From Cyanomargarita calcarea GSE-NOS-MK-12-04C (GTDB taxonomy: Bacteria > Cyanobacteriota > Cyanobacteriia > Cyanobacteriales > Nostocaceae): a stretch of 64,000 nucleotides of DNA. Location of the stretch: contig JAHHGZ010000031.1 in NCBI GenBank assembly GCA_019359595.1, forward strand, positions 42,358 through 106,357. Reading direction: 5' to 3'. Positions within the stretch are counted from its first letter, which is position 1. Every line of letters begins with the position of its first letter. The notes below the pieces were generated by a model. The model was not told where the DNA came from. It worked only from the letters and a program-made list of their open reading frames with translations, and ran no database searches. Below, piece by piece: positions 46,165-62,953 of this stretch. The position numbers and the translations under genes are program-made.

Positions 46165-46584
46165 TTAACGCTTCAATATTTCTTGAGAAGCATAATTTTG
46201 TCGTCCGCTTTTATCTGTAAACTGGGTGAAGTTTTGCAGGCTAATTTGTTTGTTTCCAGTCAGGCTAAAAGTGACGAGAGTTTTAGAAAAGCCTTTATCA
46301 TAACTTGCTGTTGCAAAGCGATGGTTTGTGTCTTGTACGTTATTACCATAAGTTAACAAAGTTGTTTTTCCCCAATCGCAATCGGTAGGAGAACATTTGC
46401 CAAATACTTGTACATTTAAGGTATTAGAACCAGCAGAAGTCACAACCACACGAGTAATACCACGAGTGTTGGAATTGGTGTTAACCCAAGTACCAACAAA
46501 ATCAGCAGGTGCCGCAAAAACCGGACTAATTAAAGCAGCGGTTAAAGCAACACTAGAAGCAGCAATCAAAGAACGTTTCAGCAT
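46165..46584 (-). CDS. Small secreted beta-rich protein
   Basis: 139 residues. Signal peptide residues 1-24 (ending PVFA). The mature part begins APADFVGTWVNTNSNTRGIT and contains two cysteines in FGKCSPTDCDWG, probably a disulfide. The alternation of strands suggests a lipocalin- or avidin-like barrel. I recall similar exported proteins in cyanobacteria without a proven function. Monocistronic; it precedes the secreted protein at 46815 on the same strand. Confidence 0.7.
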   Translation of the reverse strand: MLKRSLIAASSVALTAALISPVFAAPADFVGTWVNTNSNTRGITRVVVTSAGSNTLNVQVFGKCSPTDCDWGKTTLLTYGNNVQDTNHRFATASYDKGFSKTLVTFSLTGNKQISLQNFTQFTDKSGRQNYASQEILKR

Positions 46585-46814
46585 TTGAGTTTGACTCCAT
46601 TAATAATTGTGTAGGAAATGAGAAATATGAAAGTAAACTATTAGATATAGCGGTTCCCCTTTGCATAAGGTATACGTAAGAGTTTAAAACCGCAGTAGGC
46701 GCTGTACACCTTCTGTGTAGGGTAAAATACGGATGGATGCAGATAAACCCTGATTTTATATATAGTCAAATTCGAGTTATGAACAATAACTCATAATTCC
46801 TAACTCCCAATTTT

Positions 46815-47588
46815 TCACTTCCGCCATTTTTCACTCCAAGCACCTGTAACATCAAACCCACCAGAAACAGGAGTCAATTTCAATGAACCATAGCCAAAGG
46901 TATTACAAATAGAACCCAAACCAGCCGCACAAATATCACCGGCACCGTAACCATTAGAAGAACGAGTGCCGATATGCGAATAAGTAGAACCACCCCAATT
47001 GCCATTACCAAACCAAGTCGTATTTTTTGTGCCGACACGTAGAACGCAACGCAAACCTTCACCTTGACGATTTCCGGCTAAGTCAGAAACTTTGTATTCG
47101 TCGAAATATTCACCGCAAGTTTTCGGTCTTGGCAAAGCATTATAATTAGTAGATTGAACTAATTGCCACTCCTCATTCCATGCACCAGTGACACGAATTC
47201 TCGCTGGATTGGTAATATTTACTTTGAGATTTCCATCAAAGTTGTTGTTAATATTTTCCCCATTTCCATGAATATCAGAAGCAAAACCAATGAGGTTAGA
47301 ATTTCTATAAATAGCCTGTCCAACATGACGATAAGTTGCACCACCCCAATTGCCTTCGCCGTACCATGATAATGTAGGAATGGAAGTGCTTCTTGGTTTG
47401 CCATCGCTAAATTTGACACAACGAATACCTTGTCCTTGACGATTATCAAGCGGTTTGACAATATAGGTGCGAAGGTGGGAAGCACAGCTAAACCTTGGTG
47501 CTGGAGGTAGTTGTGCCAAAGCTGTAGAAGCTGTAGAAAGTGCTACTAAGCTACTTAGAGCTAATTTTACAGAAAGTTTATGAAACAT
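46815..47588 (-). CDS. Secreted protein with a duplicated domain
   Basis: 257 residues with a signal peptide to about 25. Two similar blocks of about 105 residues follow: CASHLRTYIVKPLDNRQGQG...GEGNWGGATYRHVG and CGEYFDEYKVSDLAGNRQGE...GNGNWGGSTYSHIG, each ending in VTGAWNEEW or VTGAWSEKW. Each block keeps an early Cys pair (for example CASH...IRC). No catalytic motif is seen. It is divergent from the sigma-like gene, 81 bp away. Role unknown; a carbohydrate- or envelope-binding module is possible. Confidence 0.7.
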   Translation of the reverse strand: MFHKLSVKLALSSLVALSTASTALAQLPPAPRFSCASHLRTYIVKPLDNRQGQGIRCVKFSDGKPRSTSIPTLSWYGEGNWGGATYRHVGQAIYRNSNLIGFASDIHGNGENINNNFDGNLKVNITNPARIRVTGAWNEEWQLVQSTNYNALPRPKTCGEYFDEYKVSDLAGNRQGEGLRCVLRVGTKNTTWFGNGNWGGSTYSHIGTRSSNGYGAGDICAAGLGSICNTFGYGSLKLTPVSGGFDVTGAWSEKWRK

Positions 47589-47669
47589 GATTTAGATTTG
47601 TTGTAGTAAAGTTTGTGCAGGTGTCGTTTAACACCTTCACTTGTTCTCTATGTTGTATTCCTATTTTTT

Positions 47670-48830
47670 ATGCACCCTCGGCAAAGCATTATTGAAATCT
47701 TCTCGACATTTGTGCAATTTGAAAGCGATCGCTTCCATAATTGGGCGACGGATGCTAGATTACGTCGTAGTATCCAAAGTTGTGTTAGTAAGAACCCACA
47801 GGAGCAAAGCGAAAATTTTTGGGTGCTGTACTGGTATAACTGTATATCAAAGCCGGAACTCAAGATGTTTGGCAAACAACATCTAACAGCTTACCTACAA
47901 GAAGCTTGTTACTGGGCATCACAAAAAACATCTGCGGGGTTTAACAGTACGCAGTATAAATTATCTGACTGTTTTCAAATAGCGATCGCAAAAGTTGATA
48001 AATTACTCAAAGGGTTTAATCCCAGTCAAGGCTCTACCCTAAAAAATTACGCTCGGGCAACTTTTGCTTGTACAATCCGAGAAACTCTGCGTCAGCGTCA
48101 TGAGGTTGATATCTGTACACCTTGGGGACTGTTACGCAAAATCAGTCAAAAGCGTTTGTTTGAGTCTTTGGAAGCTGCTGGTTTATCAAAGGATACGATT
48201 AATCTTTATATAATAGCTTGGGATTGTTTCAAAACGCTTTATCTACCAAGTCCAGGTAGCACCCGTCAGCTAGTCAGACCGGACGCTGAAATCTGGGAAG
48301 CTATAACTCAAGCTTACAATTCTCAAAACAGTCAGAAAGCAACCCCAGAAATTTTAGAAACTTGGTTGCTAGATTGTGCCAAACATACACGCAGGCATCT
48401 TTATCCAAGCACAAATTCCCTAAATAATCCTAAAAATGACGACGATTCATCTGAATGGTTAGATAATCTGTTCAGTGGGGAATCTGTACTCACTCAACTG
48501 ATTATTCAACAAGAAGAAGAAACCAGATTTTCGCAGCAAACCGAGATTCACACGCTTTTGATTAGTGCGATCGCTCTGTTAGAAACCCAATCGCAACAAA
48601 TGTTGGAGTTGTGGTATCGTCAGGGGTTGACTCAGCAGCAAATTGCCAAACATCTAGAGATTCCACAGTACACTGTATCGCGGCGATTTACCAAAATTCG
48701 AGAAACTTTGGTGAAAACCGTAGCTAGCTGGAGTAAGGAAAAAATGCATATTTCCCTCACCTCAGACATATTGAAAGAAATGACTGCCGTAATTGAGGAA
48801 TGGCTGCAAATATATTACACGCAAAGTTAG
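47670..48830 (+). CDS. Divergent sigma70-like protein
   Basis: 386 residues from ATG 47670; the frame runs 19 codons further without family support. The C-terminal part (about 297-350) is sigma region 4: LYRQGLTQQQIAKHLEIP-type helix-turn-helix (WYRQGLTQQQIAKHLEIPQY). The middle (PSQGSTLKNYARATFACTIR) matches a weak region 2, and IDQ-type promoter-melting residues are not clear. This group often sits upstream of a DUF1822 gene, as here (167 bp). It may direct RNA polymerase to the protease genes nearby, but no promoter motif was tested. Confidence 0.75.
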   Translation: MHPRQSIIEIFSTFVQFESDRFHNWATDARLRRSIQSCVSKNPQEQSENFWVLYWYNCISKPELKMFGKQHLTAYLQEACYWASQKTSAGFNSTQYKLSDCFQIAIAKVDKLLKGFNPSQGSTLKNYARATFACTIRETLRQRHEVDICTPWGLLRKISQKRLFESLEAAGLSKDTINLYIIAWDCFKTLYLPSPGSTRQLVRPDAEIWEAITQAYNSQNSQKATPEILETWLLDCAKHTRRHLYPSTNSLNNPKNDDDSSEWLDNLFSGESVLTQLIIQQEEETRFSQQTEIHTLLISAIALLETQSQQMLELWYRQGLTQQQIAKHLEIPQYTVSRRFTKIRETLVKTVASWSKEKMHISLTSDILKEMTAVIEEWLQIYYTQS

Positions 48831-48996
48831 GAGTTGAAGGGAGTTAGGAATAATGTTAGTCCAAAAAACCGGATTTTTTCCTAACTAAGCACCAGTATTA
48901 TCGACTCCTCACTAGTAGAAACCCGTTGTATTTTACGAAGCAAGAGGCTTTATACTCCCCCACCTCCCCATCTCCCTATCTCCCCCAAAACCTATT

Positions 48997-50169
48997 ATGA
49001 CAAACACTACTATATTCACCTTCACGGCCCCGAATGACCTAATTTTAGAAATACCAAGCGATGTACAAAATCAAGCACGTCGCAAAATGCAATCTTTTTC
49101 TAACCCTGCTTCCCAATATCAAGGGTATATAAACGAACTTTGCCTTTTGACAATCTTGCCTTGGTTGCGAGAAGAATTTACACCGCAAGCTGTTGTTTAT
49201 CCCTCTAACGCTGCTTTGTCAAGTTTTTGGGAACTGGTAAATGGTACAGCCATTGCATTCAGTGGAAAGCGATTAATATTAATCCCCAGCGAAGCTATGG
49301 ATTTAAGTGAATTGCGAGTTCCTCAAGAATGGGTAGATATACAGAGTTTATCTGGTGATTATTATTTAGCAGTGTATATCGAACCAGATGATAATTACGT
49401 GCGAATTTGGGGTTATTGTACTCATGCACAACTTAAAACTAAGGGAAATTATTATGCAGGCGATCGCACTTATTCATTAGATGCCAGCGACATAGTAGAG
49501 GACATTACAGCTTTAGTTGTAGCGTACCAAATATGTCCAGAAGAAGCTACAAAAAGTCCGATTGCACCGCTTCCAATTTTACCGCAAGCACAAGCAGAAA
49601 ATCTGATTTCTCGCCTCGCAAACCCGGATATCGTTACATCCCGACTCCATATACCATTTCAACTGTGGGGTGCATTAATCGAACATGGTGGTTGGAGACA
49701 AAGTTTATATCAACAACGTTTGGGACTCCCCGAACAATGGTCAATTTTACAGTGGTTGCAAAGTGGAGTTTCTCAAGTTGCTCAAAATATGGGTTGGGAG
49801 AGCTTGAATATGCAGTTGAGTGCTGCTGGTGCAAGAAGTATCGAAGAAAGTCAAGCAGGGGTGATGCTATCTCGACGTTTAGCGATCGCTGGTCAATTTT
49901 ATCAATTGTTTATTATACCACAAAATGGAGAAGACACAACAATTTGGCGCTTTGAATTGCGGAATGCTGCTGTGGGGGCATTAATTCCCGGTGGTTTCAA
50001 ACTCAGATTACTCACCGAAGATTTACAACCATTCCCAAATAACGAAGATATAGCGACAACAGCAGTGGAGCAACTCTTTGTAGAAGTCGCACTAGAACCA
50101 GGTGAAGGAATAGTTTGGGAAGTAGAACCAAAAAGCGAAAACTATGACCGAGAAATTTTGAAGTTTTGA
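48997..50169 (+). CDS. DUF1822 family protein
   Basis: 390 residues. Starts MTNTTIFTFTAPNDLILEIP and shows the cyanobacterial DUF1822 pattern, including SFSNPASQYQGYINELCLLT, RLILIPSEAMDLSELRVPQE and ADYYLAVYIEPDDNYVRIWG-like WVDIQSLSGDYYLAVYIEPD, then LGLPEQWSILQWLQ. No signal peptide or membrane segment; cytoplasmic. The function of DUF1822 is unknown to me. It follows the sigma-like gene on the same strand and faces the caspase gene across a long hairpin at 50271. Confidence 0.85.
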   Translation: MTNTTIFTFTAPNDLILEIPSDVQNQARRKMQSFSNPASQYQGYINELCLLTILPWLREEFTPQAVVYPSNAALSSFWELVNGTAIAFSGKRLILIPSEAMDLSELRVPQEWVDIQSLSGDYYLAVYIEPDDNYVRIWGYCTHAQLKTKGNYYAGDRTYSLDASDIVEDITALVVAYQICPEEATKSPIAPLPILPQAQAENLISRLANPDIVTSRLHIPFQLWGALIEHGGWRQSLYQQRLGLPEQWSILQWLQSGVSQVAQNMGWESLNMQLSAAGARSIEESQAGVMLSRRLAIAGQFYQLFIIPQNGEDTTIWRFELRNAAVGALIPGGFKLRLLTEDLQPFPNNEDIATTAVEQLFVEVALEPGEGIVWEVEPKSENYDREILKF

Positions 50170-50270
50170 AAAATCACTCTTGTGAAAAATTATATCAGGT
50201 TCGGATAATAAATAACTTGTACTTCCCATAGTTTTACTAAGCTTATCCCGCTAGCCTAGGGTATACAACT

Positions 50271-50361
50271 TCTTTCTTTGCGCACTTCGTGTCTTCGCGG
50301 TTAGAATAAAATATATTCTTTTTTTAACCGCGAAGACGCGAAGACACGAAGAAAGAAAGAG
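50271..50361. repeat. Long hairpin between convergent genes
   Basis: Arms TCTTTCTTTGCGCACTTCGT... and ...GACACGAAGAAAGAAAGA meet around an AT-rich centre; the ACCGCGAAGACGCGAAGACA core is of the ACCGC repeat family. It lies in the 309-bp gap between DUF1822 and the caspase gene and could end both transcripts. Confidence 0.75.
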
Positions 50362-50478
50362 ATTGTTTTTGTCCACCGCTGAAAGCCTTATCTAGAAACG
50401 AACAAGTCAATTTGTACACTGTAGGTGCTTCTGTGCAGGGACTATTGCATAGCTTCACAGGGTTGAGTGAAGAAGGTA

Positions 50479-52764
50479 TTATTTCCCAACCACCTCGAAA
50501 GCGATCGCCATTGCTGCTAATTTCTGAGTATCAACACCACGAATACCCGTCGGAAGTTTTATCCCTTCGGCTGTAATTCCACCACGAGTCCCTGCATCCA
50601 GGTCATTTAGCAAGGTATCGGCAATATTTAATAGTTGGTCTTCAGTGACTGGAACTAGGGTGCGAGTATTCTCCAATCCCCTTGATTTTGCAATGTCTTT
50701 TAAAGCTTTCAGGGAATCTCTTAGGGGTGTTGTACTGGCAACAATTAATGCTTCGGAAAACCCTAAAGGTTCACTGACGGTAAGTACAAAATCATCAACA
50801 TCAGTTTGAGGAATCACCAGTCTTTTTCCTGGGTCTAACAATGCTGCATCATTGGAAACTGACCAATCATTAGGAAAGACGACTGCCATATCTCCAGAGG
50901 AGTCAACTACTAAAATGCTGACATATAGGGGCACAGATTCATCATTTCTAACTTCAAAGGCAATTTTAGTTCCTAATGATAATTTAGGCACATTAGAATC
51001 TGAGGAATTTACAGGTTTAGGTGCTGGTCGAGTTGTCTCAGTGGAAACTTTCTTAACACCACGAGTTGGGTAAGTTTCACTAAGTATTTTTGTACTTCCC
51101 GCAACAGTCATTGATGTTGTGACTGCAACTCGTGATGTACTAGTATTACCCAGCATCTGTTTCACAACTTTAGCTGCTAGAAGTGATTTAAACTTTGGCT
51201 GCAAGCGAGTTATTGCACCGTTTACAGCTTCATTTCTCTCTCCAAAAGAATTGGGAATAATCTGGTTTAGCATTGGTAAAAATAAACCCAAACTACCTAC
51301 ATCAGGAAGCTTTGGCGACTTTATTTTTTGTAAATCTTGATACTTCGCTTCCGTCATTCGACCAAAAATATATTGCACCTCAGTAATTCCCAGAGGTAAA
51401 ACTTCAATCCGCTTGATTGATTGTAGAGCTTGTTTGGCTTGCTGTAAGGCATTATTATCGAGGGAGGTATCATCCAGCCCAATTTTGAGAGTCACATCAT
51501 TAGGAATGCTGCGGAGACGTTCCTGTAATAAGATACCTGGTTGTAATTGTGACGACGGCCGCGACTGTGTGGTATTAACTAATCTGCCATAACCCATCAA
51601 TCCTTCCCGAGATTCTAATTGTACCAGCGCGGGTGTGCCTCCTTTAGTATCCAAGACTGTAAAGATAGCATCTTTCTCAAAGGCTTCCAACGCTTGTGAA
51701 TCAATTCCACCCAACCATAAATCTACTTTGTCACCGTTAACTTTAGTAACTACCGCATCTGCCGATTGTGTAGTAAGAGGAGTAAAATATATAGGTGGAG
51801 TTGCATTTTTTTGGCTAAAATTTGATTCAAATTCTGGGTCTTGGTCAATTTGTTTTGAACCCCTTGCATAAACTTTAGTACTCCGACCAATATTTAAAAT
51901 AGCGCGTTTTAAAGATTCATCACCAATTTGTTGCCAAAGATATTGAGTGAATAGAAAACTAAAAGCTCCTGCACGAAAATTGCTAAAATTAGCATCAACT
52001 GCATATTGCTCGCGTTTAGCAGATGCGATTACAACTCCTTTTGCAATTGACTTTCTGCGTCTATCAACAAACTCCTGGGGTGAAATGTTGAGCTTTTTTA
52101 ACCATTGACGTTGATATTCTAATTCTTCCGAACTCGGCTCATATAAATTTGAATTACCAACAGAACGCACCAGGAAATTTCCTCGTTTTCCCCCTCCAGA
52201 ATGACAGCTATCTAATACAACGGTAACATTTTCTGTCTTGAGTGCAGACATTAATAAAAACAGCGTATGTCCCATGATTTGCTTCACACCACCCTCTTGA
52301 TTTTGACCATCAATGGGAACTAGGGTAGAATTAGCACATTCTTTGCTAAGTTTTAAAGCAATTTCATCACAGCTTGGTTTATCGCTGACTTGGGAACCAT
52401 GTCCAGAAAAGTGGAAGACTACCACATCTCCTGGCTTGGCTTGTTTAATTAAATGTTCTTCAAAAGCAGTTAAAATCCCTTTACGGGTGGCTTGGGAATT
52501 TGTAACGGTCAGGATATCTTTTGGGTTAAAACCAAAACGGTGAATTAATAATTCTTGTTGTAATTGTACGTCATTTACACAACCGCGTAGGGAAGATGTA
52601 GGATAATCATTGATTCCGACTAATAGCGCTAGTTTACGTGGTGTATTTTGTGCCAAAACTTTTGCATATTTATCACCTTGTTGTGTAATATCCCACTGAC
52701 TTAAGCCAATTGTTGCAAGTGTTGAACTAGCAAATTGGAGAAATTGACGGCGTTTGATGTACAT
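50479..52764 (-). CDS. Exported caspase-like protease with DUF4384
   Basis: 761 residues. The N-terminus has a twin-arginine signal (IKRRQFLQFASSTLATIGLS). The C14 caspase domain has His in FHFSGHG (about 120) and Cys in LDSCHSGG (about 188), both intact. The C-terminal third contains DUF4384 (KIAFEVRNDESVPLYVSILV...). Tat export means it folds in the cytoplasm and is active outside. Unlike the STAND caspase it has no sensor of its own beyond DUF4384. It lies 119 bp upstream of no gene on its strand; the subtilisin gene at 52884 precedes it in transcription. Confidence 0.9.
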   Translation of the reverse strand: MYIKRRQFLQFASSTLATIGLSQWDITQQGDKYAKVLAQNTPRKLALLVGINDYPTSSLRGCVNDVQLQQELLIHRFGFNPKDILTVTNSQATRKGILTAFEEHLIKQAKPGDVVVFHFSGHGSQVSDKPSCDEIALKLSKECANSTLVPIDGQNQEGGVKQIMGHTLFLLMSALKTENVTVVLDSCHSGGGKRGNFLVRSVGNSNLYEPSSEELEYQRQWLKKLNISPQEFVDRRRKSIAKGVVIASAKREQYAVDANFSNFRAGAFSFLFTQYLWQQIGDESLKRAILNIGRSTKVYARGSKQIDQDPEFESNFSQKNATPPIYFTPLTTQSADAVVTKVNGDKVDLWLGGIDSQALEAFEKDAIFTVLDTKGGTPALVQLESREGLMGYGRLVNTTQSRPSSQLQPGILLQERLRSIPNDVTLKIGLDDTSLDNNALQQAKQALQSIKRIEVLPLGITEVQYIFGRMTEAKYQDLQKIKSPKLPDVGSLGLFLPMLNQIIPNSFGERNEAVNGAITRLQPKFKSLLAAKVVKQMLGNTSTSRVAVTTSMTVAGSTKILSETYPTRGVKKVSTETTRPAPKPVNSSDSNVPKLSLGTKIAFEVRNDESVPLYVSILVVDSSGDMAVVFPNDWSVSNDAALLDPGKRLVIPQTDVDDFVLTVSEPLGFSEALIVASTTPLRDSLKALKDIAKSRGLENTRTLVPVTEDQLLNIADTLLNDLDAGTRGGITAEGIKLPTGIRGVDTQKLAAMAIAFEVVGK

Positions 52765-52830
52765 AATTAATTTTGGATTTTAGATTGGTTAACGGTGGAG
52801 TTTTTGCTTCATTAACAAAAAATAGATAAT

Positions 52831-52867
52831 TAACCGCAGGGTAGTACGCTGATGGACGCAGATGAAA
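52831..52867. repeat. TTAACCGCAG...ACGCAGATGAA repeat
   Basis: AATTAACCGCAGGGTAGTAC, then GATGGACGCAGATGAAAAAA. Related copies precede the TPR protein and the CHAT proteins (55053-55112 and 59279-59305), so the protease genes share this spacer repeat. Confidence 0.6.
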
Positions 52868-52883
52868 AAACTGGGGATTTGGA

Positions 52884-54998
52884 CTATTTTTGCACTGCGC
52901 TAATTGCAGCGTCAGCGTTAATCAGCCCACTACCAAAGAAGTACTGTTTATCAGTTACGGAAGAAGGTACTGCACCTTTGTCAATCTGCGAGCGATACAT
53001 TTGCTCTTCTTCTTTAGAAATACTCAACCCGTCATAACTAGCTGTGGATTTGAGAATATTAATTAATTCTTGACGGCTGAGTTTTCTGTTTGTATCTTCT
53101 CCCTTCATTAAGGCTACTACCCCAGCCACAGCAGGAGAAGAAAAGGAGGTACCTTGCACCCACCAATATTTCCCTCTCAAATCAATTACAGGGGACCAAC
53201 GAGAGGTAGGGTTGGATAAACCTTGCCAAAATCCGTCCACCCAAGTACCTCCTGTAGTGGGAATTCCACCCAACCATCCTGGTGCATCCAAGTCTCCACC
53301 GGGAGCAACTACACCTAATCCATTGCCGTAATTACTGTAGGGTGCGCGATCGCCAAATAAATTACTTGCACCAACTGATAATACTCCTGCATAACCGGAA
53401 GGATAAGCGATTTTAGTTGAGTTTTCGTTTCCAGATGAAGCAACTATCACCAATTTCGGGTTTGCTTCCAAAAGTTGGGCTAGAGCTTGTTCTTCGACAT
53501 CTGTTGGCAAACTTGCACCCAAGCTTAAGTTAATTACGTCTGCACCACGGTCGGCAGCATAACCAATTGCTTCGATGTAAGCTGAGGTGAATATACTACC
53601 ATTCAAGCCAAACACCCGCACGGGTAAAATTTTTGCGTTCGGAGCTACCCCTATTACCCCTTGAGTATTTTGTTGAGGTTTTGCAGCGATAACACCACTC
53701 ACCCAAGTACCGTGAAATTCGCTACCTACTTCATGAGACCGAATCAGGTAACGAACAATCTCAGCCTGTTCTTTTTGGGATAATTTCGGATTAGCTTGCT
53801 TTACTTCGTTAGCTTGTTTGGAGTATTGACTGAGCAATTGTTGGTCAGATAGCTTGAAGGTATTTTGAAATTTTCTCTTTAAGATGGTGAGTTCTAAGGG
53901 ACTCATCCGTGTATCAGGGTCGCCAATCTCACAAGGTTTGCTGCTGTCACTTGGCTCAGAGAAATCCCATCCGTGGACTTCTCCAGGACATTTGTCCGAG
54001 TTTTGTACGGTGTATAAACTATTTTGTAAGTCGGGATGATTCCACTGAATTAAGCTGTCAATCACCGCTACAACTACACCTTGTCCCCCTTTGCTGTGTT
54101 TCCAAGCATCGGTAACTCGCATATCTGTGCGGGGTACGTTCGATTTTGTCTGTGCAGTTTGTGTTTTCAAGCAGCTTTGCAGTGAGTCAAAGCTAGATAA
54201 TTTTTGTTCTAGGCACTGTTTGATTGGTGTACTATCTAAATGCCACTGCCACCCCAATAAATCTGTTGTAGGGGTTATGTCTTTGTTCTGTTTGTTGATT
54301 CCTTGAGTGTTGAGTCGTTTGATAGCCTGTTGTCTCATTGGATCAGAAACAGATTGGATAAAATTCGGTGCCGCAGAATTAACACCTTTGACTTGGTTTA
54401 ACTGGTTGGCAACATTCAGGATGGAAACGCCAGAGGCAGTAGTAGATTTGACTATATAAATGTTGCGATTGAAACGTAGGGGGCGGATGATCGCTAAATT
54501 ATTTTGTTGGAGAATTGTCTGTTTTTCGCTGTCGGAAGTTCCTGGTTGAAAGTTGATAATAATCTCGTTAGGTAAGACAATTGTTTCCTGGGTTTGGTTG
54601 CGAGTCAGTACGGGTAGGGAAGCTTCAACGTAAGGTTGCTGTTGAATTTTTTGCTGAATCGCTGCATCTCTTACCCCGGTCGGTAGGGTAACTACAGCAT
54701 AGTTTCCACTTAAGGGGCTCACTGCGACTTGGGAAGCAATGCTACGGGTGCCACCTTGTAAATCTTCTTCCAATTGGAGGTACAGGGGGGTAATGTTACG
54801 GGTATTATTTTTAAAGGAAACGGCGATCGCATCTTGTCGCTGGTTCAGGGGGATGCGTTGTCCTTTATATATGTAAAATAATTCGTTATTATTTACTACC
54901 TGTGCCGGTTGAGCGGAGGCAATTGTATTTAGTGAGAAAATACTTGTCAGTGCCCAAATACTGCTAGTTAGAAAAAGGCCGGGGAAAATGTTTTTCAT
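52884..54998 (-). CDS. S8 (subtilisin) family serine protease
   Basis: 704 residues. Signal peptide to about 28. An N-terminal region of about 190 residues resembles a pro-domain (IINFQPGTSDSEKQTILQQN). Catalytic triad: Asp near 315 in VAVIDSLIQWNHPDL, His near 425 in EFHGTWVSG, Ser near 617 in GTSFSSPAVAG, with the oxyanion Asn in ASSGNEN. The Asp motif is DSL rather than the usual DTG/DSG. Secreted or periplasmic. It is the next gene upstream of the caspase gene, with a repeat between them. Confidence 0.92.
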   Translation of the reverse strand: MKNIFPGLFLTSSIWALTSIFSLNTIASAQPAQVVNNNELFYIYKGQRIPLNQRQDAIAVSFKNNTRNITPLYLQLEEDLQGGTRSIASQVAVSPLSGNYAVVTLPTGVRDAAIQQKIQQQPYVEASLPVLTRNQTQETIVLPNEIIINFQPGTSDSEKQTILQQNNLAIIRPLRFNRNIYIVKSTTASGVSILNVANQLNQVKGVNSAAPNFIQSVSDPMRQQAIKRLNTQGINKQNKDITPTTDLLGWQWHLDSTPIKQCLEQKLSSFDSLQSCLKTQTAQTKSNVPRTDMRVTDAWKHSKGGQGVVVAVIDSLIQWNHPDLQNSLYTVQNSDKCPGEVHGWDFSEPSDSSKPCEIGDPDTRMSPLELTILKRKFQNTFKLSDQQLLSQYSKQANEVKQANPKLSQKEQAEIVRYLIRSHEVGSEFHGTWVSGVIAAKPQQNTQGVIGVAPNAKILPVRVFGLNGSIFTSAYIEAIGYAADRGADVINLSLGASLPTDVEEQALAQLLEANPKLVIVASSGNENSTKIAYPSGYAGVLSVGASNLFGDRAPYSNYGNGLGVVAPGGDLDAPGWLGGIPTTGGTWVDGFWQGLSNPTSRWSPVIDLRGKYWWVQGTSFSSPAVAGVVALMKGEDTNRKLSRQELINILKSTASYDGLSISKEEEQMYRSQIDKGAVPSSVTDKQYFFGSGLINADAAISAVQK

Positions 54999-55052
54999 TT
55001 TTGCGATTAATTAGTTGCTAGAGAGTGAAAATAGAAAACAAAATACGGAATA

Positions 55053-55112
55053 ATTAACCGCAGATAGACATGGTAGCCGCTTCGGCTTCCCGTAGGGTAG
55101 GACGCAGATTAA
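55053..55112. repeat. TTAACCGCAG repeat with a palindromic insert
   Basis: AATTAACCGCAGATAGACAT is continued by the palindromic insert GGTAGCCGCTTCGGCTTCCC and then GGACGCAGATTAAAAAGATT. The same repeat without the insert is at 59279. It lies between the S8 protease and TPR genes. Confidence 0.6.
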
Positions 55113-55184
55113 AAAGATTTTTGCATCCTAACAGTACTTTGTGGAAACCAATACCACTGTTAGGAGCGCAAAATCCAAAATACT

Positions 55185-55856
55185 TTAAGCCTGATTGATT
55201 TTCTCAATTACATCAAGTGCTGCTTGGGCTGAGTCGTTTTTCCCTTCTTGCTTATAGAGATTAGCTGCTAACTGCAAATCTGCAAGGGCTTTTTGTTTTT
55301 CTCCTACATAATAATACGCAATACCTCGGTAATAATAAGCGCTAGCAAATTTTCGATCGAGTTGGATGGTTTTATTGAAATCTGCAATCGCACCCTTGTA
55401 GTCTTCCAGGACCCCACGGCTCAAACCTCGGAAGTAATATGCATATGTATATTTGCTGTCAATCTCTAGAGCATTGCTAAAATCGACGATTGAACCCTGA
55501 TAGTCTTCTAAATAAGTACGAGCGATACCTCTACCCAAATAAGCATCGGCAATTTTGGGATTAATTTCCAAGACTTTGGTAAAACTATCAATTGCCCCTT
55601 TATAGTCTTCTGCTTCTAAAAGTTCAAAACCTTTATCTAAGTATTTCTGGATATCGTTGGTAGTAGTCGAACGGGTGTTAGCGGGGACTGGTTTCGGTTT
55701 AAAGTCTAATGACTCTGGCTTAAATGCTGGTAATTCTGGTTTTGCTTGTGCCAGGAGCAATTGTTGAGCATTGGGTAAACTTTTCGCTTCAGTATAAGGG
55801 CTTACAAGTGTAGTTCCCATTACCAACAAGCCTAATGTTAATGTGAGTTTCTTCAT
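55185..55856 (-). CDS. Exported TPR repeat protein
   Basis: 223 residues with a signal peptide (MKKLTLTLGLLVMGTTLVSP). From about 70 to 200 there are four TPR units (YLDKGFELLEAEDYKGAIDS, AYLGRGIARTYLEDYQGSIV, AYYFRGLSRGVLEDYKGAIA, AYYYRGIAYYYVGEKQKALA). TPRs are protein-binding scaffolds, so it may hold one of the neighbouring proteases or their substrates. No catalytic motif. Confidence 0.88.
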   Translation of the reverse strand: MKKLTLTLGLLVMGTTLVSPYTEAKSLPNAQQLLLAQAKPELPAFKPESLDFKPKPVPANTRSTTTNDIQKYLDKGFELLEAEDYKGAIDSFTKVLEINPKIADAYLGRGIARTYLEDYQGSIVDFSNALEIDSKYTYAYYFRGLSRGVLEDYKGAIADFNKTIQLDRKFASAYYYRGIAYYYVGEKQKALADLQLAANLYKQEGKNDSAQAALDVIEKINQA

Positions 55857-56041
55857 TTTTGTGTATTCCTTGGTTAGTTAATCAATTCAAATATCGAAGT
55901 CTACAATCGAGCAAGCCAAGTTTTATCAATGGTGTTACTTTGCTTGCTAAAGGTTTATATATCTGGGCTTTAAGAGCATATGCAATTTTATGAGTCGCTA
56001 TTTCCCAGCAAAACTGGGCAATAGTCCTAAAAGCCGCCAAT

Positions 56042-56689
56042 CTACTTTGGTTTACACAATTGTTCGGTTATTTCTTGACGAATTTTTACCAATTCAGGAG
56101 AAGGTCTTTCCAGGAAGTAAGCTTGCTGCAATGCATCTGACCACAGATTTTTTTGGATAAAATAATTAGTTTTAGCCAGAGCGATCGCTTCAGTATTTTC
56201 TCTTTTTGTCTGAAATTGATTTTCTAGATTCCTTAATTCGTCTGTAATTTGCTGCCGTTGTGGTGCTGGCATTACTTGAAAGCGAACAAATATACTACCG
56301 ACAACCCACTCATAATTTTTACCGGGTTCTAGCAGTTTACCTGTATAAGTTGTACTCTCAGTTCCGATGACAGGTTGAGTTCTCAAAACATAGCCATTTG
56401 GACGACGAACTGTGATTGTATTTACCTTGCCTTTCCAGAGAAATAATGGGCGATCGCTCCAAATAGTTCTACTTTCATCTGGAGAAATCAGACAAATAGT
56501 ATCTGTTGGACGACCAACAGCTTTTCGTGGTTTAACTGGAGGTTCTGGTTTCGATAGGGGGAGAAAAATCGTTGTCCAAGACAATGCTGATGTTGTTTCT
56601 GCTTTTAAAGCTTGGCTTGATACGGACGTTAATACAGGAATAGCTATTGACAGCACTAAAGTCGGTAATGTCCAGTTAGATTTACTCAT
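56042..56689 (-). CDS. Exported hypothetical protein (DUF928-like)
   Basis: 215 residues. The N-terminus is a hydrophobic signal or anchor (PTLVLSIAIPVLTSVSSQAL). The middle (RPTDTICLISPDESRTIWSD, then YEWVVGSIFVRFQV) is similar in style to DUF928, a cyanobacterial exported family found near CHAT genes, but the match is my impression. The C-terminal half is helical. It overlaps the CHAT-CHASE2 gene by 8 bp (ATGAGTAA), which implies translational coupling and a joint function. Confidence 0.65.
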   Translation of the reverse strand: MSKSNWTLPTLVLSIAIPVLTSVSSQALKAETTSALSWTTIFLPLSKPEPPVKPRKAVGRPTDTICLISPDESRTIWSDRPLFLWKGKVNTITVRRPNGYVLRTQPVIGTESTTYTGKLLEPGKNYEWVVGSIFVRFQVMPAPQRQQITDELRNLENQFQTKRENTEAIALAKTNYFIQKNLWSDALQQAYFLERPSPELVKIRQEITEQLCKPK

Positions 56690-59102
56690 AAGCTTTTTTT
56701 CTCAAGAGAGCAGGTGTTACATATAACCAAACAATTAGCGACGGTAAAAACCAAGGAAAAAGTAATGCAATTGATGAAAGGTAAATCTGCAAACTCACCA
56801 GTCCATAAATTGTTGTAGATGTGCCTAAAGCGACCAAAATTCGCCACCGAAGATGGGAATTTTTTTGGATTATATCAGATAAATATTTCCCTATGAAAAT
56901 AGCTACTACAATCATCCACACATCAGGGATGGGTACAACCAATCTGTTCGTCAGTAAATGATGTACCATGTATGCATGGAATTCACCACCAATGAAAACC
57001 TTGTTTTGATTATCTGGATTTTCCTGCTGTCGCCAGTATTTTACCGCAGGTGGTACCTCAAAATTATCTTCACCTTTAGCATTCATTCCGGCTTCATTAT
57101 TTCCTCCGGGTGCAATAATGACAATTTGCTGTTGTAAGTGAGATAAAGACGAATTATTACTATTTTTGTCTAGCAGTTTCCAAGCAGGGAGTCGCTGATA
57201 TATCTGATTTGGTGGAATAGAAAAGTCAAGAATGGGATGCAACCACATTTGATGAAAACGATAGCTCAATTGCGTGAGTGGTTGTAAGTGGTTTCGTGGT
57301 GATGTGAATATTCTCTCTTGGTTAAAATTTTGTTTGTTTAGCTCTTGCCAAAAATCTGTTTGACTATTTAATTGCGGCTGTTTGACTGAGAATCCTCTTT
57401 TCTGGGAACTGAGGTTATTCAACTGATGGGACAAAGCCAATAAATTAGCTAAGTATAACGGCTGAGAATTATCATAATTCAAAGGTAATAGTTGCATATA
57501 ACCAGGTAGAACCTCGATTTCTCCATGCAAACTCCAATTATTTTTGGTAATTTCAGGTCGTGCTTTTATCCAATCACCTGTAGCAGAGCGAGTTGTCGCA
57601 AATACAAACCAAGTCGGGTTAATTGAATTAACGCCATTTTGAATTGATTTGGCTAAAATTTTATCTTTTTCGGCTTGATATCTATCTAGTAGATAATCAA
57701 TCCCAATTACCTTTGCACGATTCGCTACAAGTTTATCGATAATACTTGCCAGATACTCACGATCCATCATCGGTATCGGATTAATGTCTGCTTTTTGAAT
57801 AGACTTGTCATCAATTTGCACCAAAAGCACTGGTGGAGTTTCTACCACTGCAATTTGGCCTGTAAGCTGACGAAACTTAGCCTGTGTAACTAAACGCTGC
57901 TCTAATAAAAAGCTCTGCACAGGCAATTGTAGGCTAATTAAAAGTAAACTCGAAACAACGATCGCTTCATTGCGAGTTGGTATTAATTTTTTGAGACGTT
58001 GTCGAATACCAAATGGTTTTGGACGAAATAGCTCTGATTCTGGATGCCGAAATAATGAGGGAATTAAGTAAGCACTCGGATATGTGAGGTTCTTTTCTAG
58101 TTTCAGATACTGAGAAGCCGTTTGCAAAGCTTCATGGACATCTTTATATTCAGTTAAAGTTTGTAAAAACTGGAGTAAAAACTCCGAAGCAACGCTATTG
58201 TGAATCGGTTCTCGCATCACCGCAACTTGACTTAAACCCATATCAATTAATGTATTGGCAATACTCAAACCATTACAGGAATTGAAAATTGCAAACTGCA
58301 AACCTCTTTTTAGTGCAGTAGTTAGTGGCTGGAGTAATTCATTAATTGATAAAGCCACATTGGGAGCGATCGCTATTTCTCCACCAGTTAAGGTAGTTTC
58401 ATTGCTGTGTCCGGCAAAGAAAAGAATATCCCAACCTTTTTCTGATGATATGGCATCTTTTATCTCATTTTTTAATTCCGGAATATTTTTTCCCGGTTCC
58501 CAACCGATAAATACCACATCTGCAATAGTAGAAAGTTGGTATATTGCTTCTTTTTCTACTTGAAAATTTAAGCCAGTATCATCACCCAAAATTGCTAATA
58601 ATCTAATTTTACTGCTCCGGCGATGATTTTGATTTTTTATTGGATTATGAATATTTTTGGGTGTGCGGACAATCCGAATCTTTTCAGAAGCGAATTCTCT
58701 ACCAATTTCCCATACTTCCCAAGGTAATCGCTCTAATTCTAGCGAGTTACAAGTGAGGAAAATATTAACTGTTGACTGGGAACTATGAGCAATTACAGAC
58801 CGAATTTCATATAATTCACCACTGCGTAACCATTTATGAAATTCAGATAACAATTTTGCTTCAGATTGCACCAATTTTGCATGCCAATCAATCGTAGCCG
58901 GTGCAATAGTGCCAATATTCACTACCCGTCCCCGGATTGCTGTTTTGTAATAACTTAAATAAGCCCGTTGCCATTCTTTATATAGTGTAGTGATATTCTC
59001 AGGATAGGAAACTGTGACACTAAGTTGCTGTCCTTTTCCCCAAGATAATTCAAATAAAGAAACTTGTTCAATCCGCTGAATTTTTAACTTTAAGTTAGTC
59101 AT
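56682..59102 (-). CDS. CHAT-CHASE2 membrane protein
   Basis: 806 residues. Residues 160-350 are a CHAT protease domain with His in FFAGHSNE (about 228) and Cys in FNSCNGLS (about 276). A membrane segment at about 380-400 leads to a CHASE2 sensor domain (TPPVLLVQIDDKSIQ...AKVIGIDYLLD), followed by three more membrane helices at about 715-800. The CHAT domain is N-terminal and cytoplasmic, the sensor outside. This is the reverse of the usual CHASE2-first order. It could cut a cytoplasmic target when CHASE2 senses an outside signal. Confidence 0.88.
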   Translation of the reverse strand: MTNLKLKIQRIEQVSLFELSWGKGQQLSVTVSYPENITTLYKEWQRAYLSYYKTAIRGRVVNIGTIAPATIDWHAKLVQSEAKLLSEFHKWLRSGELYEIRSVIAHSSQSTVNIFLTCNSLELERLPWEVWEIGREFASEKIRIVRTPKNIHNPIKNQNHRRSSKIRLLAILGDDTGLNFQVEKEAIYQLSTIADVVFIGWEPGKNIPELKNEIKDAISSEKGWDILFFAGHSNETTLTGGEIAIAPNVALSINELLQPLTTALKRGLQFAIFNSCNGLSIANTLIDMGLSQVAVMREPIHNSVASEFLLQFLQTLTEYKDVHEALQTASQYLKLEKNLTYPSAYLIPSLFRHPESELFRPKPFGIRQRLKKLIPTRNEAIVVSSLLLISLQLPVQSFLLEQRLVTQAKFRQLTGQIAVVETPPVLLVQIDDKSIQKADINPIPMMDREYLASIIDKLVANRAKVIGIDYLLDRYQAEKDKILAKSIQNGVNSINPTWFVFATTRSATGDWIKARPEITKNNWSLHGEIEVLPGYMQLLPLNYDNSQPLYLANLLALSHQLNNLSSQKRGFSVKQPQLNSQTDFWQELNKQNFNQERIFTSPRNHLQPLTQLSYRFHQMWLHPILDFSIPPNQIYQRLPAWKLLDKNSNNSSLSHLQQQIVIIAPGGNNEAGMNAKGEDNFEVPPAVKYWRQQENPDNQNKVFIGGEFHAYMVHHLLTNRLVVPIPDVWMIVVAIFIGKYLSDIIQKNSHLRWRILVALGTSTTIYGLVSLQIYLSSIALLFPWFLPSLIVWLYVTPALLRKKAYE

Positions 59103-59278
59103 CGGTCATCGTTTGTTTGTTATATTAAGTTCGGATAATTTCCTTGTAGCAAGTTCTCTTACGGTGTGATACGAAATCCAACAAGTTCTGGCATCCTTAT
59201 AATATTGCTACCCTTGCTCTTAATTAACCTACAACCCAATTTATAATAGAGTTCTTGTAAAAGTGCCAAAAAATAAAT

Positions 59279-59305
59279 AATTAACCGCAGATACACGCAG
59301 ATGAA
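59279..59305. repeat. TTAACCGCAGAT repeat
   Basis: AATTAACCGCAGATACACGC then AGATGAA. Third copy of the spacer repeat of this gene cluster. Heptamer-like CAACTCCTAACTCCTAACTT follows at 59348. Confidence 0.6.
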
Positions 59306-59377
59306 GAAGATTTGATTAAGATTAGGTATTCTTTAAATTCTTTTCCCCTCAACTCCTAACTCCTAACTTCCAACTTT

Positions 59378-62300
59378 TTACAACCCATTTCCAATTAAAA
59401 TAAATGGTGCCCAATAATAAGGGTGTGAATATCCAGTTCCGCTGTGTTGATTTCTAGGGCTTTTTCCTGCAATTGGTTTCGGTTCAATAGCACCACGTTC
59501 GCGATCGCTTGTTTTTTTGGAGTTCTTCCCATACAGTAAACTAAGCTGCGACTGACGCAATGCTTCCGGTTTTGTCGGGTGATTATCTGTAGCTAGATTG
59601 GTGTAAAATTGTTGCATTAATTGAGTTGTACTGGCATCATTTACCAACCATAAAGAAGCGATTACCGCTTTAGCTCGACGATTAAGAAAATAAAAGCTGA
59701 TACCGGAGATTTCTATCCCATCTTTTGCTGTTTCTCCGAGTGCAGTTTCGCAAGCAGATAGCACTACCAAATGGACATCACTCAAATCTTCCAAATTTTC
59801 GATTTTGGAAATTGGTAATTTTTCACCAGTGCCTAATAATAGATAAGATTCATTTTGCCGTCCTGGGACAAATACTCCGTGAGTTGCTATGTGTAAAATC
59901 TTACGACCCTTGAGATTATCTCGCAAAGTACGATAGTCAAACTGTTGATTAAGAAATTCATCTCCTGGATAAACTCCTCTTCTATCGTTGGGTTTTTGAC
60001 GAACAATTGCATTTAATTCTGCTGGGACATTCGGTAATGCACTAAAACCCGGTACAGGATTGGATAAACCCAGTGCTAAAACTTGTGTATTTGCTGTTCC
60101 TACAGGTAAGCGTGATTCAGTATCTGTTAAACCTGCTGATAGGACTGTAGAAATATTATAATTTTCAACTAAATATTGATTGCCATCAAATAAAGCACTG
60201 ATAGGAATATAACGTGCAGCACGGTCTAAGGAAAATACCAAGTTTTGAATCTTATTTGCTTTTAATTCTGGCTCAATAGGTCTAATCAACCAGTCATAGA
60301 GTTGTTTGCCAGTTGCTTTTATCTGATTTATGTCAGAATTAGGGTTTTGCAGTAATTGCCGGAATTGATTAACGGTTTCTCGCAACTTTGGCTCACCTAA
60401 GGGAACCTCTAAACTTTTAACAACACCTCCTTTGGATACCCACAATAACCAGGTTTTATCCTGGACAACAAAAATATTAATCAGTATCGTACCTTCTTTT
60501 GCTTCGACAATTTTTTTGCCAATACTTCTGACATCTTGAGTATCCAGATTACCACGGTCTTTAGAAAGGCGATCGCGTACATCTTTTTCTAATCTTTGAA
60601 CTGTTTGGCTAAATTCTGAAATTAAAGCATCACGCTCATCTGCAAGTTTAGTTTTTTCGGGACAATTATTTTTTTGGCATTCGTCAACTTTTTGTCCAAA
60701 GGCTATTAAGCTACCATATTTCTTGGTAATCTTATCTTCAATTCGAGTTTGAACAACAGGTTTTTTACTAGCTGTTATACTAGGATTATTCTTAAATTCG
60801 CTTAATTCTTGTACTTTCAATAACTCCAATACTTGACTTGCTTCTAAATTACGTCCTTGGGACAGAAGTAAATTTGCATACTCCCGATAGATATCAGCAT
60901 TACTAGTTCTATCGAATTCTTGAAGAGATTGCAGAAAAGATGTTTGTAATTCTCGTGATAATCCACGGATTTTGCCACGGGACTCTTCTATATCATCGAT
61001 AGCTTGCTGGTAATAAGTAATCGCAGCAGTTGGTTGATTTAGATCCCGATAAACCCTTGCCAAACCAGCGTATACTAAGGCCAAACTTCCGGAATATTCT
61101 TTTTGTTTAGCTAAATCCAATACTTGGAGATATGCAGCTAATGCTTCCTGCTTTTGTCCGAGTCCTCTATAAAAAGCACCCAAAAGCCTTAGCGCATATC
61201 CTTGAGAAATTGGTTCATTTAAATCTTTTCCTATTTGCAAATCTTTTTTGGCAAATTCAATAGCTTTTTGGTAATCTTTCAAACCACCATACCCTATAGA
61301 CAACAAGCGATAATTCCGCATTAAAAACCACTGTTTGTAATATGGAGTTTTGATGGATGATGCAATATCTAAACTCTCCTGAGCATAAGTAATTGTCTTT
61401 TTATAATCTCCCTGAATAAACTGATTAACACTGGCAAGCAAGAAAGATGCCGCTTCAACTGTCGGATTTTGCTTGACTTTTCTAACAGTTGCTAATGCTT
61501 CTTGTGATAATTGATTAAACTTTTGATATTCTCCTAAGTCTACATAAACACTAGCTAAAGTGAATAATGGTTTTACTATCGCAACAGGATCTTTGCTTCT
61601 CCTCGCAATTACTAAACTAGCCTCTGCAAATTCAATTGCTTTTTGATATTCTTCTAATTTAGAGTAAATATCAGCTATTTCATTTAAAGCTTCAGATTCA
61701 ATAGCCTCATTTTTAGTTCGACGTGCGATTGTTAAAGCTTCTTGGGCAAATGTCAAAGTTTTCTGGACTTCTGCATCAGAAATGGCTATGGATTTGTAAG
61801 TATTGGCTAAAATTATTAAAGCCGCTCCCTGAATATCAGTATTTTTAACTTCTTTAGCAATTTTCAACGCTTCTTGAGTTAGAGGAATTGCTTTTTGATA
61901 TTTTCCAGATTGATTGTAAGCGTTACCTAGTAATAGTAAACCACCCATCTCAGAAGTTTTCTTTGATATATCAAATGAAGTATTATCCTTTCGTTCTAAA
62001 AAAATATTGAGTGCATTCCACTCATCTTTACTGATACTAAATTTACGAATAATTCCTAAAGCTTGTTCACCGACATTTATAACTTTCGGATAGTCAGTAA
62101 TATCGTCATATAATTGTAGCAGTTCTAGTAAAATCCTAAATTCAAAAACTTTTTTGATTGTGTCTGGTGAAAGAGCTTTTCGGTCTATTTCTGATGAACT
62201 TGTCAGTAAGAATACATCTTCCTCACTCAGGTTTACTTTGCGAATCTTCTCTAATGCTTCTTGACCAACGTCAATAGCTTTTTGAGATTCTTTTTTCTGA

Positions 62301-62953
62301 CTATAAACTTCTAATTGACTATATAAAAGGATTGTTTCTACTAGCTTAAATACTTCCGGAAATTTAGTCCTAAATTTCTTTTGATATATCTGTGCTTTTG
62401 CGATATCACCTTTAGCAGTATAAGTTGAACTTAACTGCGACAAAACTTTAAACTGCAGCTCACTACTCTTCATTCCCTGAGCAATTTCCCAAGTTGGCAG
62501 CAAGAATTCTAAAGCCTTGTCATAATTTTTTATACTGTTGTAGACAATGCCTAAATTCAGCAGATTTCTTCCTTCTAAATCACTGTCTTTAATTTCCCGT
62601 GCAATTACCAAACTCTGTTCATAGGCTTCAATTGCTTTCGCATTGTCTTTTTTATTAGTATAAACATTGCCTAGGTTTTTTAGCGTTTCTCCCTGCCCCG
62701 GACGGTCTTTAATTTCTTTATAAATAGCCAATGCTTGTTGCAAAGACTGCAATGCCGCATCTACTTGCTTGATATTAAGCTGTTTAATTCCCTGTTTTAA
62801 AAGCCTATCCGCTTCTGATTTGCGATTTTGTCGGGGTGGACTACTTGCAGCTTGAGCTAAAGTTTGCTCATTTACCGAGTCTTTAGTTGCTAGTGCAGGG
62901 GAACAAATCAGGGAAAGCACTAAGGCAAGGTTAAGGGATTGTAAGCGGCCCAT
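59378..62953 (-). CDS. Exported TPR-CHAT protease
   Basis: 1191 residues from ATG 62953; TTTGGAG nine bases upstream supports it over the TTG at 62968. A signal peptide ends PALA near 22. About 15 TPR-like helical pairs (for example AIEAYEQSLVIAREIKDSDL, TLTFAQEALTIARRTKNEAI) occupy residues 40-700. A CHAT domain follows at about 880-1190, with His in LHIATHGVF (about 1021) and Cys in VLSACETALG (about 1066). In the family CHAT is a caspase-like protease. TPR-CHAT proteins also serve as the protease of Craspase complexes; here no CRISPR gene is present in the window. Confidence 0.93.
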   Translation of the reverse strand: MGRLQSLNLALVLSLICSPALATKDSVNEQTLAQAASSPPRQNRKSEADRLLKQGIKQLNIKQVDAALQSLQQALAIYKEIKDRPGQGETLKNLGNVYTNKKDNAKAIEAYEQSLVIAREIKDSDLEGRNLLNLGIVYNSIKNYDKALEFLLPTWEIAQGMKSSELQFKVLSQLSSTYTAKGDIAKAQIYQKKFRTKFPEVFKLVETILLYSQLEVYSQKKESQKAIDVGQEALEKIRKVNLSEEDVFLLTSSSEIDRKALSPDTIKKVFEFRILLELLQLYDDITDYPKVINVGEQALGIIRKFSISKDEWNALNIFLERKDNTSFDISKKTSEMGGLLLLGNAYNQSGKYQKAIPLTQEALKIAKEVKNTDIQGAALIILANTYKSIAISDAEVQKTLTFAQEALTIARRTKNEAIESEALNEIADIYSKLEEYQKAIEFAEASLVIARRSKDPVAIVKPLFTLASVYVDLGEYQKFNQLSQEALATVRKVKQNPTVEAASFLLASVNQFIQGDYKKTITYAQESLDIASSIKTPYYKQWFLMRNYRLLSIGYGGLKDYQKAIEFAKKDLQIGKDLNEPISQGYALRLLGAFYRGLGQKQEALAAYLQVLDLAKQKEYSGSLALVYAGLARVYRDLNQPTAAITYYQQAIDDIEESRGKIRGLSRELQTSFLQSLQEFDRTSNADIYREYANLLLSQGRNLEASQVLELLKVQELSEFKNNPSITASKKPVVQTRIEDKITKKYGSLIAFGQKVDECQKNNCPEKTKLADERDALISEFSQTVQRLEKDVRDRLSKDRGNLDTQDVRSIGKKIVEAKEGTILINIFVVQDKTWLLWVSKGGVVKSLEVPLGEPKLRETVNQFRQLLQNPNSDINQIKATGKQLYDWLIRPIEPELKANKIQNLVFSLDRAARYIPISALFDGNQYLVENYNISTVLSAGLTDTESRLPVGTANTQVLALGLSNPVPGFSALPNVPAELNAIVRQKPNDRRGVYPGDEFLNQQFDYRTLRDNLKGRKILHIATHGVFVPGRQNESYLLLGTGEKLPISKIENLEDLSDVHLVVLSACETALGETAKDGIEISGISFYFLNRRAKAVIASLWLVNDASTTQLMQQFYTNLATDNHPTKPEALRQSQLSLLYGKNSKKTSDRERGAIEPKPIAGKSPRNQHSGTGYSHPYYWAPFILIGNGL

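Follow-up and report, generated by a model that had tools for sequence, protein, structure and literature searches.

In the type III-E system Craspase, a sigma factor is inhibited by the two-domain protein Csx30, which is cut by the TPR-CHAT protease Csx29, as stated in the accessible part of the published account (PMC10028731). Here, we compare this and related systems with a locus of the cyanobacterium Cyanomargarita calcarea GSE-NOS-MK-12-04C, which lies in a stretch of 64,000 nucleotides (positions 42358-106357 of contig JAHHGZ010000031.1, our contig C57; below, the window is this whole stretch, and the contig ends at window position 64000). The locus comprises operon B, six co-directional minus-strand genes in the order TPR-CHAT, CHAT-CHASE2, DUF928, TPR, S8 and C14-DUF4384, and module A, which is convergent with it and contains adjacent genes for a sigma70-family protein (SIG) and a DUF1822 protein (Table 1). 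We see an even chance that the following reading is right as a whole: operon B is likely transcribed by a sigma factor linked to a promoter-like motif, and this sigma factor would be held by DUF1822 until the membrane protein CHAT-CHASE2 cuts the latter.

In surface signalling of the RseA/RpoE and FecIR type, a signal at the envelope is relayed to a sigma factor via a regulator. The arrangement proposed here would differ in that the protease itself would be the receptor, and in that the DUF1822 protein of the window has no membrane helix in our scan. The likeness to Craspase, as far as the accessible account (PMC10028731) describes it, is that a sigma factor is encoded together with a CHAT protease and with a partner whose two domains are joined by a flexible linker; the operon loci do combine a sigma factor, a CHAT protease and a further conserved protein. 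However, while Craspase is an RNA-guided complex, CHAT is here part of a membrane receptor with CHASE2, the partner is DUF1822 and the predicted regulon consists of exported proteases; in a search limited to the window, no Cas protein, Cas7-11 included, was found among 19 proteins compared with Pfam or ten compared with NCBIfam.

A sigma factor with adjacent DUF1822 beside a caspase-fold protein is also known from neighbourhoods of the EACC2-caspase/extracytoplasmic function (ECF) sigma/DUF1822 type (PMC8195603). The proteins named in the available part of that work are EACC2-caspases, some of them with CHASE2, but not CHAT-CHASE2, and neither promoter nor regulon is given there. No EACC2 domain precedes the window caspase, for which there would be no room, since the C14 domain starts at residue 43, directly after the twin-arginine translocation (Tat) signal. 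The metacaspase-CHASE2 receptor of Trichodesmium, in turn, resembles CHAT-CHASE2 in having the caspase fold inside and CHASE2 outside, with one helix before and three after, but it carries C14 instead of CHAT, and the part of the source available describes no link to a sigma factor (PMC3501461). A cluster of WD40, CHASE2 and DUF928 genes has been noted as well, and an acid-stress response of a DUF928 protein cited, in the accessible text of PMC5587647.

Operon B and its sister loci

All ten genes named in an earlier, sequence-only reading of this DNA proved to be open frames, placed as described and with the domains assigned to them (Pfam, NCBIfam), and they fall into the two convergent units. 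What that reading had taken for a sigma70-like protein with DUF1822 does have both domains, distributed over two separate, adjacent proteins. Its small exported protein is the DUF928-like gene, which shares 8 bp with the end of CHAT-CHASE2; the match of the protein to PF06051 reaches 24.1 bits, under the Pfam cut-off of 26, and it matches DUF928 proteins of sister operons at 44-50%. The six genes of operon B are predicted to be transcribed as a single unit that also has an internal promoter.

Of the 388 genomes examined in the order, 134 contain relatives of CHAT-CHASE2 at 1e-40 and 103 at 1e-100, a cut of our own choosing by which we define the CHAT-CHASE2-clade genomes. As test loci we took the surroundings (14-20 kb) of 40 matches from the list, mostly the top ones, picked by CHAT-CHASE2 alone, and as controls 20 stretches at arbitrary places in genomes of the same set; gene presence was scored by iterated profiles. 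CHAT-CHASE2 itself was found in 40/40 test loci and 2/20 controls, SIG in 33/40 versus 0/20, DUF1822 in 36/40 versus 1/20, DUF928 in 32/40 versus 0/20 and another CHAT gene in 27/40 versus 0/20. Three of the loci scored without SIG (L088, L090, L091) have it just beyond the stretch (L128, L142, L143). The frequent gene order is SIG, DUF1822, (TPR-CHAT), CHAT-CHASE2, DUF928, (TPR), (TPR-CHAT), (S8 or C14), and one locus, L102, has both S8 and C14. The C14 protein of the window is closest to those of L102, L104 and L118 (52-60%), its S8 protein to that of L057 (64%), followed by L098 and L045 (60%), and its TPR-CHAT protein to that of L101 (39%); a search of genome contigs with the S8 protein yielded one related locus, again L057, from a Rivularia assembly. 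Named relatives of the DUF1822 protein come from Nostoc, Calothrix, Scytonema and similar cyanobacteria.

As a check, the sequence-only reading had suggested counting CHAT, caspase and S8 genes around sigma-DUF1822 pairs, and the counts support an association. Four genomes contributed 38 DUF1822 loci, that of the window included; a CHAT gene from the matches listed lies within 15 kb in at least 23 of them (5.0 expected), C14 in 6 (1.9 expected, p about 0.01) and S8 in 6 (1.5 expected, p about 0.004). Similarly, CHAT-CHASE2 follows downstream on the same strand within 12 kb in 71 of 110 DUF1822 rows, and within 1 kb in 63, although many of these loci had been fetched for CHAT-CHASE2. One could suppose a chance neighbourhood of common gene families, as CHAT genes are many (48 matches in this genome; 39-60 per genome across four genomes, next to 11-19 caspase-like matches), but the control loci and expected counts, the conserved gene order and the shared motif described below already contradict this explanation, which we regard as scarcely credible.

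A promoter-like motif and the genes it precedes

The sequence TGCATAAG is present in 10 of 16 upstream regions of operon sigma genes, followed in the alignment by an AGA-TA element 11 bases on. The core pattern TGCATAAS-N11-BRGA has 40 matches in 1.53 Mb of test loci versus none in 0.40 Mb of controls, with a spacer peak at 11, and 20 of the 40 sites, in 20 genomes, are located within 350 bp before a SIG start. With spacers of 12, 13 and 14, the core has 20, 9 and 6 matches in the test loci, two of these before SIG. None of the 20 spacer-12 matches precedes SIG; perhaps they represent the promoter class of a sister sigma factor. The strict pattern TGCATAAS-N11-BRGADHTA occurs at 53 sites in ten operon-bearing genomes (2 for the reversed control) and at none in two genomes without DUF1822 (G012, G019). 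In the full set of 388 genomes, 420 strict sites were found in 103 (reversed control, 35), and two or more sites are present in 57 of the 103 CHAT-CHASE2-clade genomes versus 5 of the 285 others (Fisher p about 1e-33, to be taken as a guide only, as the genomes are related and the clade cut is self-chosen).

For scoring, we used a matrix built from 39 of the 53 strict sites, with the site of the window left out. Of about 128,000 window positions, the best is the minus-strand site before TPR-CHAT and the second-best the minus-strand site before the TPR gene (Table 1), compared to a maximum of 11.1 bits in 398 kb of controls and an expectation of 0.11 core matches per window. The score stays below 5 at the starts of module A and at those of CHAT-CHASE2, S8 and C14. 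The third-best score, 15.8 bits, falls inside the gene small139 of module A (46212-46238, minus strand). As two gene starts of operon B thus carry the motif found before the sigma genes of relatives, its six genes are likely switched on together. No earlier account of the motif or the regulon was found in the mostly open literature on DUF1822, CHASE2, CHAT and DUF928, the motif itself not having been searched for.

All seven strict sites of this genome were read. Five of them are located 15-86 bp before TPR-CHAT genes (one site on C50, two on C69, one in the window and one on C80, where the gene is decayed), and four of these five are in no locus that was used for motif discovery; the other two precede a sigma remnant with DUF1822 on contig C39 and, at a distance of 395 bp, a glycosyltransferase gene. 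The sites of other genomes were read in part. Of the 14 sites of G003, nine precede one SIG gene, four TPR-CHAT genes and three two-partner-secretion exoprotein genes with one unscanned lookalike; further sites stand before genes for a histidine kinase, a C39 peptidase exporter and, at a distance of 335 bp, a trypsin-like peptidase, and one is without a gene. In G368, a Tat-caspase gene on contig C97, apart from the sigma operon of that genome, has a site 40 bp upstream. Three of the ten sites read among the 20 of G077 precede TPR-CHAT and one precedes SIG, while in G103, where nine of ten sites were read, two are before whole TPR-CHAT genes and one before a broken one, the tenth being before SIG. 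The other sites read in these two genomes stand before genes for an AAA-like protein, for an ABC ATPase and for small proteins that look exported by eye, or before different genes, or have no clear gene behind them, and one site of G370 is at a gene without evident link (L272).

Some of the G003 sites deserve a separate description. Two scanned and one unscanned exoprotein gene of the two-partner-secretion type stand in a row downstream of the sigma operon (L241, L242; C1:2536-2550 kb), each with its own motif site. The C39 peptidase exporter is of the ABC type (L248:5007-7214), and at L238:2116-2412 the motif precedes a peptide with a double-glycine-type leader, recognized by eye and without a match in Pfam. 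These sites give the impression that the regulon may also include a secreted peptide.

DUF1822 has 14 matches in this genome, none of them near a contig end. On contig C52, DUF1822 is situated between open frames for SIG and CHAT-CHASE2, in operon order (L117), and the region upstream of this sigma gene reaches 26.0 bits with the matrix. In the DUF1822 tree, the protein from contig C39 clusters with those at the operon heads in G230 and G370. The C39 locus (L130:9046-13195) is an operon remnant with the motif kept, 67 residues of sigma before DUF1822 and TPR-CHAT in pieces. Since no DUF1822 gene is near a contig end and the operon-type DUF1822 genes are on C52 and C39, operon B is here probably served in trans, and the C52 sigma factor is likely its cognate sigma factor. 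The single envelope proteolysis system postulated in the sequence-only reading is supported in a widened form, as a predicted regulon instead of a neighbourhood: CHAT, CHASE2, DUF928, TPR, S8 and C14 recur with a sigma-DUF1822 pair and share the motif, but the grouping with the window's own sigma factor is not supported.

The DUF1822 linker and a possible protease-to-sigma switch

Matches to both sigma2 and sigma4 place SIG in the sigma70 family. In its structural model (mean predicted local distance difference test score (pLDDT) 87; predicted template modelling score (pTM) 0.57), residues 67-163 match sigma2 at 1.9 A over 93 residues, and the top matches are whole sigma chains, with root-mean-square deviations >20 A because the domains are placed differently. 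The DUF1822 model (pLDDT 82, pTM 0.71) consists of an alpha/beta domain (15-242) and a beta-sandwich (288-390), with a linker of pLDDT <50 at 273-285. Across 110 distinct DUF1822 proteins, this linker is variable in length and letters except for an Arg at one aligned column in 102 of them, the next-best column reaching 66%; of the remaining eight, four have an Arg a few residues off and four, from two lineages, a Gln. The residue before the Arg is preferentially F, M, L or A, and the one that follows it S, G or D. The Gln proteins are those of L121, L122, L123 and L124, and their genomes (G021, G339, G109, G050) are without a strict motif site.

By their conserved residues, the CHAT proteins of the window qualify as putative His-Cys dyad proteases: the dyad of CHAT-CHASE2, H232/C276, is present in 41/41 proteins and in 71/72 rows of a larger set, the remaining row being a gap, and that of TPR-CHAT, H1030/C1073, in 37/38. 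The C14 protein has the caspase/orthocaspase dyad (H122 and C187 in 6/6) and the N-terminal Tat motif KRRQFLQ (K4R5R6 in 6/6), and the S8 protein has D314 and H429 in 7/7 and a GTSFS motif. The scan places three helices in CHAT-CHASE2, at 381-399, 721-739 and 764-782, and four in several relatives; as a signal peptide is lacking, CHAT is predicted to be cytosolic and CHASE2 outside. For TPR-CHAT, DUF928, TPR, S8 and C14, in contrast, export is predicted. A crude signal-peptide rule is passed by 31/32 DUF928, 32/38 TPR-CHAT and 4/6 S8 proteins of sister operons, compared to 71/260 control frames, 1/33 SIG and 0/34 DUF1822 proteins. The signal peptides that the sequence-only reading had seen on most parts are thus borne out as predictions, except that S8 and C14 were missed by the crude rule and called by eye.

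In the reading favoured here, an envelope signal would be sensed by CHASE2, whereupon the cytosolic CHAT domain of the receptor would cut DUF1822 at the conserved linker Arg; the sigma factor, restrained by DUF1822 until then, would be freed to read the motif and to transcribe the exported protease genes. We infer the cut from the near-invariance of the Arg, from the preference of orthocaspases for cleavage after positively charged residues, as reported in the accessible part of PMC6426788, and from the precedent of Csx29 and Csx30. A protease-to-sigma switch, which has a close mechanistic precedent, appears plausible. Its bolder version, to which we give somewhat less than an even chance, would be a CRISPR-free, membrane-built counterpart of Craspase, in which the receptor CHAT cuts DUF1822 after the linker Arg and the sigma factor directs a surface arsenal encoded across the genome, namely exported TPR-CHAT proteases, Tat-caspases, subtilases and secreted exoproteins.

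Several observations weigh against the reading favoured here. Operon B's own sigma head is not on its contig, which ends about 1 kb upstream of the operon. Full S8 and C14-DUF4384 are found in a minority of sister loci (9/40 test loci versus 1/20 controls, and 5/40 versus 0/20); in terms of gene content, they are best classed as accessory parts of the system. Strict motif sites are absent from 35 of the 103 CHAT-CHASE2-clade genomes, and many sites of G077 and G103 precede neither a TPR-CHAT nor a sigma gene. The DUF1822 model gave no clear fold match, and Csx30 is not among the matches listed. Finally, in a set of 43 proteins, the CHAT residues E255 and D287 set the four proteins paired with a Gln linker apart from most of the 39 others, but this rule of co-variation with the linker Arg or Gln broke on 71 pairs, many Arg pairs having N, S, A or K at 287, and was rejected.

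Doubtful, but with a substantial claim to attention, is a regulon without a protease switch, in which the sigma factor reads the motif, DUF1822 is a positive partner or scaffold and CHAT-CHASE2 has other targets. The evidence for motif and regulon is independent of cleavage, DUF1822 usually adjoins sigma, and the linker Arg could serve to contact sigma; yet the linker around this Arg is variable and modelled with low confidence, and the gene that comes next to DUF1822 often encodes a CHAT protease whose dyad is conserved. We consider it highly improbable, on the other hand, that the caspase-fold proteases are abortive-infection or programmed-death effectors of a defence or cell-death island, even though the background given for CHAT and C14 in the sequence-only reading points that way and the accessible part of PMC8195603, in dealing with conflict systems, names ECF sigma and DUF1822 as neighbours of EACC2-caspase proteins. 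The proteases of the window have predicted export signals, their PADLOC matches are to single generic models (caspase, subtilase, IetS and TPR, with eight proteins scanned and the system rules not run), and the motif of G003 also precedes two-partner-secretion exoproteins, the C39 peptidase exporter and the trypsin-like peptidase.

Module A and the wider window

Judged by gene content, the sigma-DUF1822 pair of the window and two divergent small exported genes, sec257 and small139, form one module, sister to operon B. In a tree of 64 DUF1822 proteins, that of the window groups with those of L038, L041 and L043 (support 98/91); all four belong to a 13-row clade (100/100), apart from which stand the DUF1822 proteins of B-type operons. 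Two of these three loci have sec257 (in L041 and L043, where relatives of 74-77% diverge from the orthologous sigma gene) and two have small139 (relatives of 63-64% beside the orthologous sigma-DUF1822 pair, in L038 and L043), and no CHAT, S8 or C14 match was found within the 17-20 kb fetched for each. The block TTGTAGTAAAGTTTGTGnAGG between sec257 and sigma shows few changes across the window and these loci and has a single match in the window. The clade as a whole is nevertheless not free of protease neighbours, since other members are found near C14 or S8 (L037, L039, L042, L044, L049, L050, L045) or near CHAT and CHAT-CHASE2 (L040, L046). A 47% relative of sec257 is located near another DUF1822 and CHAT-CHASE2 pair (L131:13626-14357, on contig C62 of this genome).

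That the window's sigma factor is part of the protease system, as the sequence-only reading had it, or its master is not supported, given the different DUF1822 clade, the sec257 and/or small139 genes kept by its nearest members and the missing motif. As the head of operon B it was rejected as the simplest reading, based on the DUF1822 tree and the missing motif, but we retained it as a rival explanation, according to which this pair, as the nearest one, drives operon B after loss of the head pair. It is the convergent neighbour of operon B, relatives in its clade lie near C14, S8 or CHAT-CHASE2 (L037, L045, L040, L046), and no other operon-type pair is near this contig end; against it speak the different DUF1822 clade and an upstream region with another conserved block in place of the motif. 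We judge it improbable, albeit compatible with the reading that we prefer, a motif-linked sigma factor released from DUF1822 by CHAT-CHASE2.

Table 1. Features of module A and operon B, in window positions
Feature	Position	Strand	Description
small139	46165-46584	-	139-residue protein, exported (predicted), module A; Pfam without match
sec257	46815-47588	-	257-residue protein, secreted (predicted), module A, divergent from sigma; Pfam without match
conserved block TTGTAGTAAAGTTTGTGCAGG	47601..47621	+	candidate promoter of module A; between sec257 and sigma
sigma70-family SIG	47613-48830	+	module A; likely start ATG 47670 (386 residues); PF04545, TIGR02937
DUF1822 protein	48997-50169	+	module A; PF08852 2.8e-116; Arg280 in linker
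C14 + DUF4384, Tat-exported caspase-fold protease (predicted)	50479-52764	-	last gene of operon B; PF00656, PF14326
S8 subtilisin-family protease, secreted (predicted)	52884-54998	-	operon B; PF00082 2.4e-47
TPR protein, exported (predicted)	55185-55856	-	operon B; PF00515; signal-peptide-like start
second sigma-type promoter-like site	55958..55984	-	about 100 bp upstream of TPR-S8-C14; 22.3 bits
DUF928-like protein, exported (predicted)	56042-56689	-	operon B; PF06051 3.4e-5
CHAT-CHASE2 membrane receptor-protease (predicted)	56682-59102	-	operon B; PF05226, PF12770
TPR-CHAT protease, exported (predicted)	59378-62968	-	first gene of operon B; PF12770 4.3e-59
sigma-type promoter-like site TGCATAAC-N11-TAGAAATA	62999..63025	-	31 bp upstream of TPR-CHAT; 24.4 bits

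Elsewhere in the window, a minus-strand gene (37894-43260) encodes a protein of 1788 residues with an N-terminal C14 domain, an nSTAND1 NTPase and WD40 repeats, which looks like a cytosolic signalling caspase. It is adjoined by a gene for an SNF2/type III restriction-like helicase (33816-37142, minus strand), and the two may be a defence pair. Further off, a molybdopterin oxidoreductase gene adjoins one for a cytochrome P450 (24551-28468).

The roles of CHAT and caspase-like proteins in cyanobacteria are debated, and they are often taken as cell-death proteins. The shared promoter-like motif would put several exported TPR-CHAT genes under one sigma family, and thus under a common regulator, and makes the role of these genes directly testable. 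Should the receptor-protease indeed cut DUF1822, a signal from outside would reach transcription by a short path, and the switch from CHAT to sigma, known from a single CRISPR type, would prove to be a more widespread theme.

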